DNA of 52,007 nucleotides from Candidatus Choladousia intestinavium (GTDB lineage: Bacteria > Bacillota > Clostridia > Lachnospirales > Lachnospiraceae). Shown in pieces: positions 7,292 through 45,898 of the stretch. The DNA lies in contig DVGK01000052.1 of NCBI GenBank assembly GCA_018712785.1, positions 1-52,007 of the forward strand, in the 5' to 3' direction. The position numbers and the translations under genes were made by a program. The notes beneath the pieces are model-generated. The model searched no databases. It had not been told where the DNA came from and saw only the letters and a program-made list of their open reading frames with translations. How positions within the stretch are numbered: the first letter of the stretch is position 1; every line of letters begins with the position of its first letter.

Positions 7292-7364
7292 TGAAGCATC
7301 GGGGATTCGAACCCCGGACAACTTGATTAAAAGTCAAGTGCTCTACCGACTGAGCTAATGCTCC
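7292..7364 (-). tRNA. tRNA-Lys (TTT)
   Basis: 73 nt with complete cloverleaf: acceptor GGAGCAT/ATGCTTC with one G-U pair, D-loop AGCTCAGTCGGTAGAGC, anticodon loop CTTTTAA, T-arm GGGGTTCGAATCCCC, discriminator A. CCA is not encoded. Last gene of the six-tRNA operon. Confidence 0.97.
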
Positions 7365-7385
7365 TCAAAGCGGAAGTCCGCCAAG

Positions 7386-7457
7386 CTGGGCTAGCTGGAT
7401 TCGAACCAGCGAATGCAGGAGTCAAAGTCCTGTGCCTTACCGCTTGGCGATAGCCCA
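7386..7457 (-). tRNA. tRNA-Gln (TTG)
   Basis: 72 nt; acceptor TGGGCTA/TAGCCCA, anticodon loop with TTG, T-arm CTGGTTCGAATCCAG, discriminator G as expected for tRNA-Gln. No encoded CCA. Confidence 0.97.
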
Positions 7458-7529
7458 ATAAATAAAATTGCGGGGTATACGTCCCGAACAGCCACAATAC
7501 CATCCGGCACATCCCTCCGCATAAGAAAG

Positions 7530-7604
7530 GGTGGATAAAGGGATTCGAACCCTTGGCCTCCAGAGCCACAATCTGGCGCGCTAACCAGCTGCGCTATACC
7601 CACC
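7530..7604 (-). tRNA. tRNA-His (GTG)
   Basis: 75 nt including the extra G(-1) opposite C73 that is the identity element of tRNA-His; acceptor GTGGGTA/TATCCAC, anticodon GTG in TTGTGGC, T-arm AAGGGTTCGAATCCCTT. A 72-nt spacer separates it from tRNA-Gln, the longest in the cluster. Confidence 0.96.
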
Positions 7605-7641
7605 ATAATCATGAAATTTGACTTTTCTTTGAAAAGAAAAG

Positions 7642-7715
<74 letters not shown>

Positions 7716-7719
7716 AAAA

Positions 7720-7790
7720 AGCGGGTGATGGGAATCGAACCCACGTATCTAGCTTGGAAGGCTAGTGTTCTACCATTGAACTACACCCGC
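7720..7790 (-). tRNA. tRNA-Gly (TCC)
   Basis: 71 nt; acceptor GCGGGTG/CACCCGC, anticodon TCC in CTTCCAA, T-arm TGGGTTCGATTCCCA, discriminator T, as usual for bacterial tRNA-Gly. Four nt separate it from tRNA-Arg. Confidence 0.97.
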
Positions 7791-7816
7791 ATCTTACATA
7801 TAAACCTGTTCAAAAC

Positions 7817-7891
7817 TCGGGGTGACAGGATTCGAACCTGCGACCTCCTGGTCCCAAACCAGGCGCTCTAGCCAAGCTGAGCCACACCCCG
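7817..7891 (-). tRNA. tRNA-Pro (TGG)
   Basis: 75 nt; acceptor CGGGGTG/CACCCCG, anticodon TGG in TTTGGGA, T-arm GCAGGTTCGAATCCTGT, discriminator A. First gene of the operon, about 33 nt after the predicted transcription start. Confidence 0.97.
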
Positions 7892-17518: not shown

Positions 17519-20290
17519 CTAAAGCAGTTCACCGTAATGCCGCGCGTATGCCTTCTTCAGGCTTGTCGCCAGCATCATATACAGCAGGATGCATGGAAGC
17601 AGATAAACAAAATAGCAGAACGGCAGCGCCGCGAATCCCAGCATAGCGCCGAGAGGTGTAAATGGAATAATAGTAAGCACAGTCATTCCCGTGCAGGTAA
17701 GCAATGTCAGAGGCGCTGAAGCATGACTCTGAATAAAAGGAATCTTAGGAGTCCGGATCATATGAATGACCAGAGTCTGGCTCCACATTGACTCAACGAA
17801 CCATCCAGCCTGGAACATGGCAATATACGCAGTCTGCATCTGCATTAATCGAGCGCCGCTGAAGTGGTTTGGCAGGTCATTGTACAGAACGCCCCCGGAA
17901 ACAAATATAGGACAGAAAACAAAATACATAAAAATATATGTTATGAAATCAAAGACAGAACTGGCAGGCCCAATCCATATCATAAAGCTTCCCACTGATG
18001 AAGCATCCCATCTGCGCGGAATTTTTAAAAATTCTTCATCCACATTATCCCAGGGAATGGCAGTACAGGACAGATCATAAATCAGGTTGAGGAGTATCAG
18101 CTGCAGGCTCATCATCGGAAGGAAGGGCAGCAGGGCGGAAGCCGCCAGTACTGAGAACATATTGCCGAAATTCGAAGATGCAGTCATCTTAATATACTTG
18201 ATCATATTCGCGTAAGTCTTACGCCCCTCTACAATCCCCTGTTCCAAAACCATCAGATCCTTTTCCAAAAGGATCACGTCGGCTGATTCCTTAGCCACGT
18301 CTACGGCAGTATCTACCGAAATCCCTATGTCTGCTGACCTCATAGCCGCCGCGTCATTTACGCCGTCTCCCATATATCCGACTGTATGACCGTTTTCACG
18401 CAGGACAGAGACAACGCGGGCTTTCTGATCCGGAGTCAGCTTCGCGAATACATCTGTTTCTTCTGCAGCTTCTGCCAGATCTGCGTCTGTCATATTCTCC
18501 AAGTCTGTTCCAAGAAGCATGTTGCGTACTTTCAATCCCACTTGCTTACAGATAGTGCGTGTCACTTTCTCATTGTCACCTGTCAGGATTTTCGCAGTGA
18601 CGCCATGTTCTCTCAGCGTCCTGAGCGCACCTGCCGTAGATACCTTCGGCGGATCCAGAAAGGCCAGATACCCTATAAGGACCATATTACATTCGTCTTT
18701 CACACTGAAAAAACCAACCGGAGCCGGATTATTCTTCTGGGCAATCGCCAGAACACGAAATCCTTTGTCATTTAAATCGTCTACTGTCTCAAGAATCTGC
18801 CTGCGAATCTCATCTGTCAGGGAACGAATTTCTCCCTCATACTCCGCGAACGTACAGATAGAAAGCATCTCTTCCACCGCGCCCTTCGTTACCATCTGGG
18901 TCTTTCCGCTCCTGTCCTGTACCACTGTGGACAGACGGCGGCGGGCAAAATCAAAAGGAATTTCATCCATCTTTATGTAGTTTTCTGACAGATCCGTTAA
19001 CTGAGGATTTGTGGCTTCCTCTTCCTCTGTCTTATTTATAATCGCCACATCCATAAGATTCTTATAACCAGTCTGGAAGTAACTGTTCAGATAAGCGTGC
19101 CGAAGAACCCGCACATCCTCCTCACCATTAATATTCAAATGATATTCAAGTACAACTTTATCCTGGGTCAGTGTCCCGGTCTTATCTGTACATAGAATAT
19201 CCATCGCGCCAAAATTTTGAATTGAATTCAAATTCTTCACAATCGTCTTCTTTTTACTCATAGAAACGGCGCCTTTCGCAAGGCAAGTGGTCACTATCAT
19301 AGGCAGCATTTCAGGCGTCAGTCCAACGGCAATCGAAATGCCAAAAAGAAATGCTTCCACCCAGTCTCCTTTCGTAATTCCATTAATAAAAAACACAAGC
19401 GGAACCATAATCAATATAAATCGGATCAAAACCCATGAAACCGCGTTTACACCTTTTGTGAAGCTGGTTTCCGCCGCCTCCTCTGCCACGGCTGAGGCCA
19501 TAGTTCCAAATGCAGTATGATCGCCTACCCGAACGACCACCGCCGTGGCGCTGCCGGAAATGACACTGCTTCCCATAAAAGCAATGTTTCTGTAATCCGT
19601 AACAGATGCCTTCTGTTCCTCAACCATTTTGGCCGTCTTTTCCACAGGCGCACTTTCCCCTGTAAGGCTGGACTGACTGACAAATAAATCCTTGGCGTCC
19701 AGAATACGGACATCCGCCGGAATCATATCACCTGCAGACAAGTGAACAATGTCTCCAACTGCCAGATCATCCATAGGGATCTCAATCTTCTCCTGCCCTC
19801 TGCGGGTAACGGTACAGGTCGTAGTAATCATAGCCAGCAGTCTCTCCGCTGCGTTGCCGCTCCGGGATTCCTGAATAAACCTGAGCGTTCCTGAAAACAA
19901 TACCATCGTTATTATAATGATCACTGTCAGACAGTCAAAATCTTCCGGCGTTTTCCCAAACAGAGAAAAGCAGGGGAAAATTATATCTGTGACAGAAGAT
20001 ACCGCTGCCAGAAAAAACAAAATGGCAGTAAAGGGATTGACAAAGGCGCCAGCCAGCCGAGCCGCCAGCGGCTTCTTTTTCTCATGTGTCACTTTATTTG
20101 TGCCATATTTTAAGCGACTGGTTGAAACCTCTTCTCCATCCAACCCGCACAATGTAGTGTGCAGGCTTTTGAGAACTTCCCTTGCGTGACTCATGGCCGC
20201 AAAATGAATGCGGCGGTTTTCTTCAGCCCGGATCTCTGCTTTTTCCGCAGATGTTCGGGCGGTCTGACGATTCATTATTTTCTTATTCAT
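17519..20290 (-). CDS. mgtA: Magnesium-translocating P-type ATPase (MgtA type)
   Basis: 923 residues, full length for the P3B family. Actuator TGES motif in [12 protein letters not shown], phosphorylation site [10 protein letters not shown], nucleotide domain TKGAVEEM, hinge [10 protein letters not shown] and about ten membrane spans, with the family's [10 protein letters not shown] and [13 protein letters not shown] segments near the C-terminus. It imports Mg2+ at low external Mg2+. AAGGAGGTAAG precedes the ATG. The leader (20305-20445) holds a 23-codon ORF inside paired stems instead of a recognisable M-box. A closely related ATPase gene lies 0.8 kb upstream and a 54-residue membrane protein gene just downstream. 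Confidence 0.95.
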
Positions 20291-20327
20291 TCTTTCTTAC
20301 CTCCTTACTTTTTCTGCAGAGGCAAGA

Positions 20328-20445
20328 GCGGTTTATATGAGAGACATGAAACTCTGTCCCCTATATGCCCTTCTCTGCCTTTCCGAACCACTGTCATAGT
20401 CCATGTCTCTCACCTCCTTTTAGACGGAATATCTATATAAACCGC
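20328..20445 (-). promoter_or_regulatory. Structured leader RNA of mgtA with two nested stems
   Basis: Minus-strand RNA. Outer stem GCGGTTTATAT with ATATAAACCGC (20435-20445 and 20328-20338), 11 perfect pairs. Inner stem GAGAGACATG with CATGTCTCTC (20402-20411 and 20339-20348), 10 perfect pairs. On the 3' side the two helices are directly adjacent; on the 5' side a 23-nt bulge carries an AAAAGGAGGT Shine-Dalgarno. The inner stem contains the start codon and last codons of the upstream ORF. I find no M-box (ykoK) signature. Confidence 0.72.
20333..20404 (-). CDS. 23-residue leader peptide ORF upstream of mgtA
   Basis: ATG at 20404 preceded by AAAAGGAGGTGAGAGAC, a near-perfect ribosome-binding site with 5-8 nt spacing. 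The peptide starts MDYDSGSERQRRAYRG and ends QSFMSLI, with a basic middle (RQRR). The stop TAA (20333-20335) lies inside the 3' half of the outer leader stem, 42 nt before the mgtA ATG. Translation to the end would open both stems. Function as a sensing peptide is inferred from position; it has no proline run like enterobacterial MgtL. Confidence 0.6.
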   Translation of the reverse strand: MDYDSGSERQRRAYRGQSFMSLI

Positions 20446-20482
20446 AGTGCGGATCATTATTCCCCGGTTCCAAAAACAGTAT

Positions 20483-20538
20483 AAAAAAATCGCAGGGAAG
20501 ATTACATGGGCAAAACCTTGCAATTTCCTTGCGATTTT
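20483..20538 (-). terminator. Terminator after the winged-helix gene
   Basis: Stem AAAATCGCA/TGCGATTTT (9 bp, 20530-20538 and 20486-20494) with GG/CC extension, followed by a seven-T run on the minus strand. It separates the upstream ATPase-regulator operon from the mgtA leader. Confidence 0.88.
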
Positions 20539-20553: not shown

Positions 20554-21051
20554 TCATACCGTATCGCTGAATTTATATCCGATTCCCCATATTGTCAAAA
20601 TATACTCCGGCGCATCCGGATTCGGCTCTATCTTCTTTCGGAGCTTTCTGATAAACGCCATAATGTTGCTGTCATCCAGCAGGTAGTCATTCTCCCATAC
20701 AGCCTGATAAATCTGTTCCTTTGTAAATACCTCTCCCCGGTTCCGAGCCAAAAAACACAGAATATCAAACTCCTTGGGCGTCAGTGAGATCTCCTCCCTC
20801 TCCCGGGTTACTTTTCGTGCTTTCACATAAATAGCCAGAGCTCCGCATTGGATCACCTCGCTGACCGGAACCGCCATTTCTTCCCCTCCCAGCTCCAGCA
20901 TAAGAGAAGCGGCTGTCCCGTTCATCAAATCCTCAAGTCCTTCCAGCAGCTCCTCTTTTTCACGGGTCTTTGGCCCTGAAAGCCGAAGCTTTTCATGAAG
21001 CCATTGTACTAGAGAGGAATCCAGAGTGACCAGACCAATATTCTTTTTCAC
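20554..21051 (-). CDS. Winged-helix DNA-binding protein lacking a receiver domain
   Basis: 165 residues with a GTG start after AAAGGAGGAATCTGCC. Residues about 85-165 are an OmpR/PhoB-type winged helix (ISLTPKEFDILCFLARNRGE, IMAFIRKLRKKIEP, ILTIWGIGYKF). The N-terminal ~80 residues are far too short for a receiver and show no DD, D or K phosphorylation residues, only NIGLVTLDSSLVQWL, which recalls a trimmed first strand. The gene starts 17 nt after the first Mg2+ ATPase gene ends and is followed by a terminator and the mgtA leader, so regulation of one or both ATPases is inferred. The signal it senses is unknown. Confidence 0.82.
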   Translation of the reverse strand: MKKNIGLVTLDSSLVQWLHEKLRLSGPKTREKEELLEGLEDLMNGTAASLMLELGGEEMAVPVSEVIQCGALAIYVKARKVTREREEISLTPKEFDILCFLARNRGEVFTKEQIYQAVWENDYLLDDSNIMAFIRKLRKKIEPNPDAPEYILTIWGIGYKFSDTV

Positions 21052-21068: not shown

Positions 21069-23723
21069 TTACAATAGTTCACGATATTTTTTTATATACC
21101 ATCTTTTCACCAGAGTCATCAGCAGCAAATACAGCACGACTACGGCGATCAAAAAGCCAAAATAGGAAATCGGAAGGGCCGTCAGGCCGATCAGCTGTCC
21201 TACCGGTGTAAATATTAAAACTGTAAAAAGTAAAATCCCCAGCATCGTTACCGCCATTACAGGAGCCGAGGGCCTGCTTTGAAAAAGAGGTACCTTCTTT
21301 GTGCGGAGCAGATGCAGGATCAGAATCTGCGTCCACATGGATTCCAGAAACCACCCTGTCTGAAACAGAGAGATGAACCTCATCTGTGTCTCTGCGCCAG
21401 ACAGTTCCCGAAAGCTGCCGCCGCAGACGAAGGGGCAGAAAACAAGAAACAAAAACGCAAAAGCCAGAAGATCGAAAACAGAGCTTACCGGTCCAAAACA
21501 CCTCATAAAACGCCCTAATGTCCGGCCGGACCACTCCAGCGGCCTTGAACAATCCTCCTGATCCACATTGTCCCAGGGAAGAACCAGACACAGGGTATCG
21601 TAGAGCAGGTTCAGCAGAAGAAGCTGTACAGAAGCCATGGGGAAAAAAGGCAGGAATACGCTGGCAATCACAATTGACAAAATATTTCCAAAGTTGGAGG
21701 AGGCAGTGATCCTGATATATTTTGACATATTGCAGAATGCCTTCCTTCCCTCCAGAATTCCCTCTTCCAGCACATTTAAATCTTTTTTCAGAAGAATCAC
21801 ATCAGCGCTCTCTTTGACAGCTTCCGCGGCAGTATCTACAGATATGCCTACATGGGATTCTACAATAGCAGGCAGATCATTCATCCCGTCTCCCAGAAAC
21901 CCCACCGTATGGCCGTTGGCCTGAAGCGTCTGTACAATCTGAACCTTCTGTTTAGGTGAAAGTTCCGCAAAAACCATGGTATTTTCAATGCGGATCCACT
22001 GTTCCTCTTCGTCCAGAGTCTCCAGCTCTTCCCCGGTCAGCATTCGTTCCGCGTCAATGCCAAGACGTCTGCAGACGGAAACTGCAATATCCCGCTGGTC
22101 TCCGGTCAGCACTTTGATCCCTACGTGAAGGCTCCGAAGTTTCTGTATAGCGTCTGTAGCTGTCTTCTTGGGCGCATCAAAAAACGCCAGATATCCCAAA
22201 AGCGTCAGTTCCTGTTCATCCTCTGCTTTCAGCTGTGTTCGGTCAGTTTTTCTGAAGGCCACTGCCAACACTTTCATGCCGTCTTCCATCATTTCATCTA
22301 CAACAGCGTGGACACTTGAAAAGCTATCAGACTTCATCGGGAAATATCTGCCTTTATATTCAACATACCGGCATCGGCGGCATACCTCTTCTACACTCCC
22401 CTTGACAAGCACCAGATTCTCTTTGCCGTTTTTTACAAGAATACTGGCAAATTTCCTCTCATAATCGAAAGGGATCTCATCCAGCTTGGAATGCTGAACA
22501 ATAAGCTTTTTAAAATACTCCTCTTTTTCCGGCATCTCCCTGCATCGGAGGACAGCCGTATCCAGGTGATTAGCGACACCTGTGTGATACAGGCTGTTCA
22601 GATAGGCGAAATCCAGCACTTTTTCGCTTTCATTTCCCAGAATATCCATATAATATTCCAGCAGAATGACATCTCCGGTCAGAGTGCCGGTCTTGTCTAC
22701 GCAGAGTATATCCATGCTGCCGAAACTCTGCATAGCATTAATATTTTTCACCACCGTCTGCTTCTGTCCCATGGCCGCACTGCCCTTAGCCAGACAGGCA
22801 TTGATCACCATAGGCAACAGCTCCGGCGTCAGGCCGACTGCCACAGACAGGGCAAATAAAAAAGCAGAAAACCAGTCTCCCTTCGTCACGCCGCAGGCGA
22901 TAAAAACCACCGGAACCAAAACTGCCATAAAGCGGATCAGCACCCAGGCAATGGAGTTGGCCCCTTGATCAAATCTGTTCTTCCCGGATGATTCTGTACC
23001 TGAGAAGCCTCCATAAACAGTATCCCGGCCCACTGCCAGCACAATTCCATCTCCGCTTCCGCCGGTTACAACCGAACCCATAAACGCAATATTATTATAT
23101 CCGCCGTAAGACCTTGGCTTTTCCTCAGACAGAATCTCTGCGTTCTTTTCCAGGACGGCGCTTTCCCCTGTAATCACAGACTGAGAAACAAACAGATCCT
23201 TTGACGCTGTCAGCCGTATATCAGCGGGCACTCTGTCTCCGGCAAAGAGACGAACCCGATCTCCCACCACAAGCTCCAGGGAAGAAATCTCCTCCCATCG
23301 GCCGCACCGACGCACTGTCACACTGGAATGAAGAAGGCTTGTTAGATGATCTGCCACACGCTTCGAACGCATCTCCTGAACGAAACGAAGAAGACCGCTG
23401 ACAAGCAGCATACACAGGATAATCATCACAGTAGTCATATCACGGCCAAAATCAGACGCCAGCAGCACGTCCGTGACAAACGAAATGATCGCGAGAACAA
23501 ATAAAATAATGGTAAAAGGATTGATAAAAGCTCTGCGCAGACGATATAAAACTGTATCTTTTGCCCTTCCGGTCAGCCGATTGCTTCCGTATTTCTGACG
23601 GCTGCTTTCCGCTTCTTCACGCCCGTACCCATCTTCTGAAATTCGGAAATCAGCATATAAACGGTCTTTTTCTGCATGCGCATAGTAAAGAACACGCTCA
23701 TGGATTGCGCTGCTGCCCCTCAT
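21069..23723 (-). CDS. Second MgtA-like P-type ATPase
   Basis: 884 residues from the ATG at 23723, chosen because GGAGGTGA lies 5 nt upstream (upstream in-frame codons carry that site inside the reading frame). The same architecture as the MgtA protein 0.8 kb away: SVITGESAVLEK, CVDKTGTLTG, VKGSVEEV, GDGMNDLPAI, WDNVDQED and FQTGWFLESMWTQ. Sequence drift between the two is substantial (for example GDGMNDLP against GDGVNDAA), so this is an old duplication or separate acquisition, not a recent copy. Mg2+ import is the default role; a different divalent ion cannot be excluded. It forms an operon with the winged-helix gene. Confidence 0.92.
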   Translation of the reverse strand: MRGSSAIHERVLYYAHAEKDRLYADFRISEDGYGREEAESSRQKYGSNRLTGRAKDTVLYRLRRAFINPFTIILFVLAIISFVTDVLLASDFGRDMTTVMIILCMLLVSGLLRFVQEMRSKRVADHLTSLLHSSVTVRRCGRWEEISSLELVVGDRVRLFAGDRVPADIRLTASKDLFVSQSVITGESAVLEKNAEILSEEKPRSYGGYNNIAFMGSVVTGGSGDGIVLAVGRDTVYGGFSGTESSGKNRFDQGANSIAWVLIRFMAVLVPVVFIACGVTKGDWFSAFLFALSVAVGLTPELLPMVINACLAKGSAAMGQKQTVVKNINAMQSFGSMDILCVDKTGTLTGDVILLEYYMDILGNESEKVLDFAYLNSLYHTGVANHLDTAVLRCREMPEKEEYFKKLIVQHSKLDEIPFDYERKFASILVKNGKENLVLVKGSVEEVCRRCRYVEYKGRYFPMKSDSFSSVHAVVDEMMEDGMKVLAVAFRKTDRTQLKAEDEQELTLLGYLAFFDAPKKTATDAIQKLRSLHVGIKVLTGDQRDIAVSVCRRLGIDAERMLTGEELETLDEEEQWIRIENTMVFAELSPKQKVQIVQTLQANGHTVGFLGDGMNDLPAIVESHVGISVDTAAEAVKESADVILLKKDLNVLEEGILEGRKAFCNMSKYIRITASSNFGNILSIVIASVFLPFFPMASVQLLLLNLLYDTLCLVLPWDNVDQEDCSRPLEWSGRTLGRFMRCFGPVSSVFDLLAFAFLFLVFCPFVCGGSFRELSGAETQMRFISLFQTGWFLESMWTQILILHLLRTKKVPLFQSRPSAPVMAVTMLGILLFTVLIFTPVGQLIGLTALPISYFGFLIAVVVLYLLLMTLVKRWYIKKYRELL

Positions 23724-23783
23724 TTTCTTCACCTCCAAAAGACCTACGCCGCGCCGCAGCATGTATTTCCAATATATATTCCC

Positions 23784-45525: not shown

Positions 45526-45552
45526 AAAAACCCTTGCTTCGCAAGGGTTTTT
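45526..45552 (-). terminator. ssrA terminator
   Basis: Perfect 12-bp stem AAAAACCCTTGC/GCAAGGGTTTTT with a GAA loop, ending 3 nt from the tmRNA 3' end. Confidence 0.93.
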
Positions 45553-45554
45553 CA

Positions 45555-45898
45555 TGGAGTAGACGAGAATCGAACTCGTGTCCGAAAGCCAATTCACTGT
45601 CCTTCTACTATCATAGTCAGCTCTTTGTCATTCCCTCCTGGAACCGGCAGCGGACGGCCTGCTCCATTTGGTAGCTTCATCCTACGCCCATATGCGCAAA
45701 GCTTAACATATGTCGTTTCCTGCTAAGGTCGATGCCTGGGTTCCGGCGTGCAGGTCCGCCGGGCCAGACAACTGCCAGATTAGGCAGCGTATGCTAAACG
45801 ATTGTCGTCAGCGTTTATATTTAGGTTTGCGATTTGACGCATCAGCCTGCGGATAGCTTCTCCAGCTTCATAACCCCCGTCGAAACCTTTACTACCCC
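45555..45898 (-). ncRNA. ssrA: tmRNA
   Basis: 344 nt. The 5' GGGGTAG pairs with 3' CTACTCC; the conserved GGTTTCGACGGGGG follows the 5' end, and the T-arm is GAGTTCGATTCTC. The tag frame after CGTCAAATC reads ANLNINADDNRLAYAA then TAA, ending in the usual proteolysis signal. CCA is not encoded. With smpB upstream on the same strand it forms the ribosome-rescue pair. Confidence 0.97.

Follow-up and report, generated by a model that had tools for sequence, protein, structure and literature searches.

The mgtA leader of the window (the whole 52,007-nucleotide stretch analysed here, from contig DVGK01000052.1 of Candidatus Choladousia intestinavium) is, judging from sequence comparison and predicted folding, probably a ribosome-read attenuator of mgtA translation, and presumably one that responds to Mg2+. 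Tiny upstream ORFs (uORFs) like the one found here also precede the unrelated mgtE channel gene in other bacteria, and the uORFs are probably part of a ribosome-based Mg2+ sensor. The gene and the elements of its leader are as follows.

17519..20290, minus strand: mgtA, the regulated gene, encoding a Mg2+-transporting P-type ATPase (NF011702 and TIGR01524 scores above cut-off)
20296..20303, minus strand: helix Q 3' arm, the mgtA Shine-Dalgarno (SD) sequence GAGGUAAG (folding; shuffle test)
20319..20326, minus strand: helix Q 5' arm, the anti-SD CUUGCCUC (folding; shuffle and swap tests)
20315..20345, minus strand: helix P 3' arm, which includes the anti-SD (shuffle test; folding of the truncated, nascent transcript)
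20328..20338, minus strand: outer stem 3' arm (shuffles and folding; without support in 15 other leaders)
20333..20404, minus strand: uORF of 23 codons plus stop (ATG, TAA), MDYDSGSERQRRAYRGQSFMSLI (ORF list, SD, acidic start, codon-change test)
20337..20348, minus strand: helix A 3' arm, the final uORF codons (shuffle and swap tests; Stouffer z -18.3 in 64 leaders)
20356..20379, minus strand: helix P 5' arm (anti-anti-SD), uORF codons 9-17 (significant at set level only)
20402..20413, minus strand: helix A 5' arm, comprising the SD end of the uORF, spacer and ATG (window duplex z -3.9, p 0.003)
20410..20420, minus strand: uORF Shine-Dalgarno AAAGGAGGTGA (sequence)
20435..20445, minus strand: outer stem 5' arm, overlapping the 3' half of the local hairpin CCGCAnnGCGG (shuffles; folding)

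The minus strand carries two perfect 11-bp stems around the 23-codon uORF, MDYDSGSERQRR..., which has a strong SD and the acid residues D2 and D4. In the inner stem, TGAGAGACATG (20412-20402) pairs with CATGTCTCTCA (20348-20338) over 11 bp; in the outer stem, GCGGTTTATAT (20445-20435) pairs with ATATAAACCGC (20338-20328), likewise over 11 bp, or 10 bp once the shared base is assigned to the inner stem. The 3' arms of the two stems are contiguous, the uORF ATG lies inside the inner stem, and the stop codon lies inside the outer stem. Among 1000 dinucleotide shuffles of the 176 nt, a stem of at least 11 bp arose in 2 and one of at least 10 bp in 7, and two stems of at least 10 bp arose in none; the stretch 20480-20290 is also more stable than 200 shuffles (z -3.5). 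A preliminary description of this DNA is borne out as regards the place and perfection of the two stacked stems, the SD, the 23-codon ORF with its ATG in the inner stem and its last codons and stop in the opposing strands, and the MgtA-type gene downstream, which scores above cut-off with both models listed. Absent from that description were helix Q, which hides the mgtA SD, the competing helix P and the conserved acidic N-terminus of the peptide.

The predicted fold depends on the assumed 5' end. From 20472 or 20450 the inner and outer stems form with probabilities of 0.95 and 0.89, from 20480 with 0.98 and 0.08, and from 20520 or 20560 both are at or below 0.05. Prediction of helix A thus requires a transcript start around 20480 or further downstream, and 40-80 nt of extra upstream RNA removes it in the model. 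The mgtA-SD hairpin (20326-20319 with 20303-20296) forms in all five folded stretches (0.97-1.00). By eye, several relatives keep paired changes in the small hairpin CCGCAnnGCGG situated 5' of the uORF (20452-20442), its variants including CTGC..GCAG in L066 and CCAC..GTGG in L065.

Along the RNA the arms run in the order A5, P5, A3, P3 = Q5, Q3. Since P crosses A and has one arm in common with Q, it would exclude both, so that the leader would adopt either A plus Q or P.

A DNA query with the leader in 60 relatives returned, besides the window itself, only short matches of about 15-40 bases, and leaders were therefore reached via the mgtA protein. Genomes with a match to the mgtA homologue numbered 28/250 in the family, 6/47 in the genus, 45/392 in the order and 34/391 in the class, and 80 mgtA loci were additionally drawn from named genomes. 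The 173 mgtA loci among the matches listed (L032-L204), paralogues and remote homologues included, gave 154 leaders after removal of five with less than 150 nt upstream and of 14 duplicates. The mgtA leaders of G178, a genome of the same family, and of Enterocloster alcoholdehydrogenati (L037, L070) are identical over their last 150 nt.

A short ORF preceded by an SD (a match of at least 6 nt, the ORF lying at most 450 nt upstream) is present in 90 of the 154 mgtA leaders among the matches listed. Its second residue is Asp or Glu in 62 of these 90, compared with 46 of 654 (7%) background ORFs elsewhere in the same loci. The commonest residues at positions 2-7 of these 62 D/E-start uORFs are D, S/A, G/D, S/G, S and S/P, with proline at residue 7 in nine. 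The remaining 64 leaders, including those of the close relatives L033, L035, L036, L063 and L064, have no SD-preceded short ORF, and the three mgtA1 leaders from the same genus whose upstream DNA was usable (L142, L143 and L144) all lack an acidic uORF. Because leaders without the ORF include close ones, and same-genus copies are without the acidic uORF, the element appears to come and go. Two mgtA leaders (L081 and L084) have two acidic-start uORFs each. The Streptococcus/Lactococcus mgtA leaders (L112-L114, L122, L089) have SD-preceded uORFs with other acidic/proline starts, namely MIQIDDHPEPHRT, MPEDGHPEKT and MESQSINSPEPERPQ.

Codon changes among nine close leaders differ along the uORF: 54 of 114 single-change codon pairs are synonymous at codons 2-8 and 15 of 69 at codons 9-15, each against 20% expected, the pairs being drawn among nine sequences and so not independent. 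The preservation of the reading frame, which the preliminary description proposed to check, is accordingly supported by a synonymous excess at codons 2-8 and is not seen at codons 9-15. The pattern of changes suggests that the peptide matters at its start, and the RNA after that.

DNA patterns of the uORF start gave 39 matches in 783 genome scans, 35 of them preceding or beginning mgtA or mgtE. The stricter pattern, an SD followed by M-D-x-[G/D/E]-[S/G], has five matches in 392 order genomes, all directly upstream of mgtA; the looser one, with D or E at residue 2, has 34 in 391 class genomes, and the reversed-pattern control has none in either the 392 order genomes or the 391 class genomes. 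With the genes downstream of the class matches assigned by reading and a Pfam scan, 25 of the 34 lie before mgtE, four before mgtA (L215, L221 and L230 by Pfam, and L231 by a position matching the class mgtA homologue search), one is the start of MgtE itself, and four are misfits: a ROK protein, an aldo/keto reductase fragment, the end of an anaerobic ribonucleotide reductase, and an ORF of 41 codons upstream of an Mbeg1-like gene. This last ORF (MDSDGYYYINRSGRMFK, L240) has the same start motif ahead of a gene that does not encode a Mg2+ transporter. The uORF of the window falls outside the DNA pattern because of its Tyr3; its peptide start does match M-[DE]. MgtA and MgtE are unrelated families that both transport Mg2+, so that matches before both give, in our view, the strongest argument for connecting the uORF with Mg2+.

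Six long mgtE leaders (L210, L213, L214 and L216-L218) have two acidic uORFs in series, the second with an MD or VD (GTG) start followed by PLP: MDSGPLP, MDTVPLP, MDFDPLP, VDPVPLP, VDPIPLP and VDPVPLP. The PLP motif of these second uORFs is reminiscent of the enterobacterial MgtL sequence. In L222 the N-terminus of MgtE is itself MDSDGSKGNNTN, behind an M-box (144 bits), as if a leader peptide had been fused to the transporter.

The same observations bear on whether the RNA might sense Mg2+ directly, its stems folding at high Mg2+ without a ribosome and the uORF being a mere carrier of sequence. Such sensing, which would suit the strong stems of the window and which the excerpted account still treats as an unsettled question in the enterobacterial mgtA leader (PMC11552253), fits poorly with a peptide start that is conserved across leaders of dissimilar RNA and also before mgtE, and the leader sequences inspected have no visible conserved aptamer-like core; we regard it as very unlikely.

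Mg2+ control in Bacillota is attributed mainly to the M-box aptamer. At gathering threshold, no M-box (RF00380) is found on either strand of the whole window, in keeping with the preliminary description, and the mgtA leader of the window matches no Rfam family; the M-box is also absent from the 18 close loci L062-L079. It matches 24 mgtA loci (9/20, 14/20 and 1/19 of those scanned), and in 20 of these a D/E-start uORF lies downstream of it, the exceptions being L041, L086, L087 and L097. Further mgtA loci with an M-box are L205, L207, L208, L221 and L230 (L215 being a repeat of L088), and among the mgtE loci it occurs in 2 of 26 (L214 and L222). Since it occurs both by itself and downstream of an M-box, the uORF is an element in its own right.

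These distributions also tell against the reading that the acidic uORF answers translation stress, such as ribosome splitting, loss of bL31 or antibiotics, so that its link to Mg2+ transporters would serve ribosome stability and not Mg2+ homeostasis. Loss of bL31 or EttA does alter MgtL/MgtA output in E. coli, according to the portions of the reports available (PMC11552253; PMC11282234). As 35 of the 39 pattern matches belong to Mg2+ transporters, and the uORF is present in most M-box mgtA loci (the 20 of 24 given above), this reading is highly improbable.

The helices were compared over 16 short-type leaders (the window and 15 others), chosen after inspection and with the failing L038, which has neither A nor P, kept in. 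Against shuffles, which treat the leaders as independent and ignore shared descent, helix A (uORF SD/AUG with the 3' part of the uORF) is significant at p<0.05 in 11 of the 16 (Stouffer -10.7), helix P (uORF middle with the anti-SD region) also in 11 (Stouffer -9.8), and helix Q in three (Stouffer -3.9). For the window alone, A has z -3.9 (p 0.003), Q z -1.4 (p 0.12) and P z -0.3, which is not significant. When 3' arms were swapped among the 16 leaders, A and P each gave p 5e-5, the floor of 20000 permutations, and Q p 0.005, helix P of the window ranking 8 of 16. The arms fit their own partners better than swapped ones, and helix A is thus kept in relatives by matching changes in both arms.

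A wider set of 64 leaders comprises the 62 D/E-start leaders together with L037, L069 (whose uORF was assigned by hand) and L077, but without L107, the stretch of which is too short. Here helix A reaches Stouffer -18.3, with 40 leaders below -1.64, and helix Q -10.5, again under the assumption of independent leaders. The P3 arm overlaps the Q5 arm in 48 of the 64, a moderate excess over the 38.8 +/- 3.2 of shuffles. Long-range pairing of the uORF body with sequence far downstream is significant over 41 long leaders (Stouffer -14.0; p<0.05 in 23), and in 18 mgtE leaders A and P reach Stouffer -9.7 (11/18) and -7.3 (9/18), respectively.

The outer stem was rejected as a conserved part: it has z -4.5 in the window but Stouffer -0.1 over the 15 other short leaders, with p<0.05 in only one of them, that of the closest relative (L062). 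The preliminary description had proposed that the uORF and both stems form a control element of a Mg2+ transporter, with covariation of the stems as a check. For the uORF, and for the inner stem that locks its start, the proposal is upheld by the shuffle, swap and 64-leader tests; the outer stem is not supported as a general feature. Intrinsic terminators were likewise rejected as a general platform, a simple scan having found T-tail hairpins, several of them weak, in 15 of the 62 D/E leaders. The predicted SD-sequestering helix Q is more general than an intrinsic terminator.

We examined how a ribosome on the uORF might set the choice between the two states by folding RNAs that end before the mgtA SD while a ribosome footprint was moved along the uORF. 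Fourteen leaders were used, L075 (which has no Q partner) and L038 being left out here and in the shuffle test of the uORF middle. Mean pairing of the anti-SD with the uORF middle is 0.71-0.77 with the ribosome at codons 1-4, at most 0.03 at codons 9-16, and 0.46 in the ribosome-free RNA; the corresponding values for the truncated transcript of the window are 0.76-0.77 (codons 1-4), 0.00 (codons 6-17) and 0.04 (no ribosome). The loss of P under a ribosome that sits on the P arm is trivial; the presence of a P to be lost is not. On shuffling the uORF middle, the set mean at codon 3 drops from 0.755 to 0.39, the top of 100 shuffled set means being 0.58; for the window by itself the same shuffle is not significant (p 0.17-0.21). 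In full-length equilibrium folds the mean effect on mgtA SD accessibility is small, 0.43 at codon 3 versus 0.23-0.24 at codons 9-15, and in the window the accessibility is 0.20 with the ribosome at any of codons 1-19, equal to that with no ribosome. With the equilibrium effect missing at early codons in the window, the model therefore needs cotranscriptional folding.

Under the proposed mechanism, at ample Mg2+ the ribosomes would get beyond the acidic codons and occupy the P arm, or else A would be the resting state of the RNA; in either case the anti-SD would be free, Q would form and mgtA would be off. At low Mg2+ the ribosomes would falter or drop at the first acidic codons through intrinsic ribosome destabilization, as with MgtL/MgtQ. 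A ribosome failing this early would hold A open and leave the uORF middle bare, so that P could form before the mgtA SD is transcribed; with P formed, Q would be blocked and mgtA translated. From the modelled ribosome positions we infer that a ribosome which has started but fails to clear the acidic codons would turn mgtA on, and that full translation of the uORF, or none, would leave it off. Low Mg2+ is taken as the natural cause of the early failure because the two early acid residues of MgtQ (positions 2 and 5) and the EPDP start of MgtL act in this way in Salmonella and E. coli, as far as the excerpted accounts go. UORFs of the same kind might act likewise before mgtE and, behind the M-box in remoter mgtA leaders, might provide a second Mg2+ checkpoint.

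A different use of the same uORF would be translational coupling, with ribosomes that finish the uORF melting Q and feeding or freeing the mgtA SD, and with helix A merely setting initiation at the uORF as the point of control. In short leaders 5-42 nt separate the uORF stop from the mgtA start (-42 to -5), stop positions that leave some room for reinitiation or coupling at mgtA, and Q does open in silico as the ribosome nears the uORF end (0.63 at the stop in the window). The distance is, however, 42 nt in L032, 39 nt in L062 and more than 60 nt in many long leaders, and coupling leaves unexplained both helix P, seen at set level, and a selection confined to the acidic first codons. We therefore consider coupling unlikely and retain failure at the acidic codons as the preferred reading.

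Elements upstream of the leader suggest an additional level of control.

20517..20534, minus strand: 11-bp direct repeat, TCGCAAGGAAA TTGCAAG, candidate operator of the winged-helix (wHTH) protein (genome pattern search)
20554..21051, minus strand: orphan winged-helix regulator, PhoB-type (Trans_reg_C as its sole Pfam match)

The protein encoded at 20554-21051 has no receiver-domain match in Pfam. The direct-repeat pattern (TCGCAAGGAAA-TTGCAAG) has 10 sites in 8 of 12 genomes, the window's genome contributing one; all 10 lie within mgtA loci, in a search whose genomes were picked for carrying mgtA and whose pattern was derived from those same loci. In G266 and G602 the repeat precedes both mgtA copies. 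The repeat at 20534-20517 overlaps an inverted repeat, and a TATACT noted by eye lies downstream at 20483-20478, which is absent from the output of a promoter scan. The direct repeat is likely an operator, and with this candidate upstream and the proposed switch in the leader, mgtA is probably under both promoter and leader control. A second MgtA ATPase, 47% identical, lies in tandem at 21069-23762, upstream of the regulator, and its leader (L147) has no listed acidic uORF. Six clustered tRNA genes and one tmRNA gene lie elsewhere in the window (7292-7891 and 45552-45898).

The operator invites the further reading that the uORF of the window is real but has decayed, or arose by chance, and no longer switches, control having passed to the wHTH protein. 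Confinement of the repeat to mgtA loci in the 12 genomes searched, same-genus relatives without an acidic uORF, the weak helix P of the window and the dependence of its helix A on the assumed 5' end would all agree with decay. Against this, the shuffle test supports helix A in the window (p 0.003), and SD, acidic codons and anti-SD are all intact there, so that we judge loss of the switch to be quite unlikely and continue to favour a working attenuator.

More broadly, and with slightly less assurance than for the window leader, we think it fairly probable that Bacillota have a widespread ribosome-based Mg2+ sensor in which acidic-start leader peptides, by way of a single A+Q / P switch, time the translation of both MgtA and MgtE, often in series with an M-box for mgtA, and which either is independent of MgtL/MgtQ or stems from a very old common device. 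If so, the ribosome would serve as a second Mg2+ gauge in another phylum, through a peptide family characteristic of mgtA and mgtE leaders, and sensing by an acidic nascent chain would be no enterobacterial oddity. In many mgtA leaders, one mRNA would then read Mg2+ twice, by the aptamer first and the ribosome second. The family, found mostly in Bacillota, offers dozens of natural variants for probing how a nascent chain reports Mg2+, and a rule for annotating leaders that look unremarkable to a simple ORF caller.

Several known systems share parts of this arrangement. In the parts of the reports available, the M. tuberculosis pe20 leader also has uORFs between an M-box and its genes and a translational platform, but there the M-box controls the uORF, whose role is described as uncertain, the gene is pe20, and the excerpt mentions no acidic start (PMC12810186). 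The Thioalkalivibrio mgtE motif is likewise a candidate RNA element before mgtE; it differs in belonging to one genus and in being a riboswitch candidate, with no uORF mentioned in the excerpt (PMC11109978). The M-box (ykoK, RF00380), a known Mg2+ riboswitch of Mg2+ transporter genes, stands apart from the uORF, which lies behind it where both occur. Among the open-licence PMC papers listed by literature searches, no title or opening abstract lines describe leader peptides of this acidic type ahead of mgtA or mgtE in Bacillota.

Like enterobacterial MgtL, the uORF of the window precedes the gene for an MgtA ATPase and has acid residues at positions 2 and 4. According to the excerpts, MgtL has the acidic/proline start EPDP (PMC11282234), and stem A of the E. 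coli mgtA and corA leaders is predicted to mask the SD of the uORF when Mg2+ is high (PMC11552253); helix A would do the same here, if the 5' end permits. Unlike MgtL, which involves prolines and Rho-dependent termination, the window peptide MDYDSGSERQRRAYRGQSFMSLI contains no proline and so no EPDP-type start, and the platform here is predicted to be an SD-sequestering hairpin.

In Salmonella, mgtQ precedes mgtB and encodes Asp2 and Glu5, with the alternative stems 1:2 plus 3:4 versus 2:3 (PMC8092293, in excerpt). The window leader shares with it a short uORF that encodes Asp2 and, soon after, another acid residue, two predicted RNA states that exclude each other, and a transporter RBS held in one hairpin, which in mgtQ is freed by faltering ribosomes (PMC8092293). 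The closure of the mgtA RBS with an anti-RBS is predicted in the window as helix Q, and the competing helix that takes the anti-RBS, helix P, is significant over leader sets and not in the window alone. The two differ in that mgtQ has 8 codons and lies between operon genes, while the window uORF has 23 codons in a 5' leader, in another phylum and with another sequence, and in that helix A closes the start of the window uORF. The preliminary view that neither mgtL nor an M-box is recognisable here is correct as to sequence similarity; it overlooks that the logic is that of mgtL/mgtQ and that many remoter relatives carry a true M-box before a uORF of the same kind. Not a member of either family by sequence, and without detectable homology to them, the leader as predicted nonetheless resembles mgtL and mgtQ in its logic.
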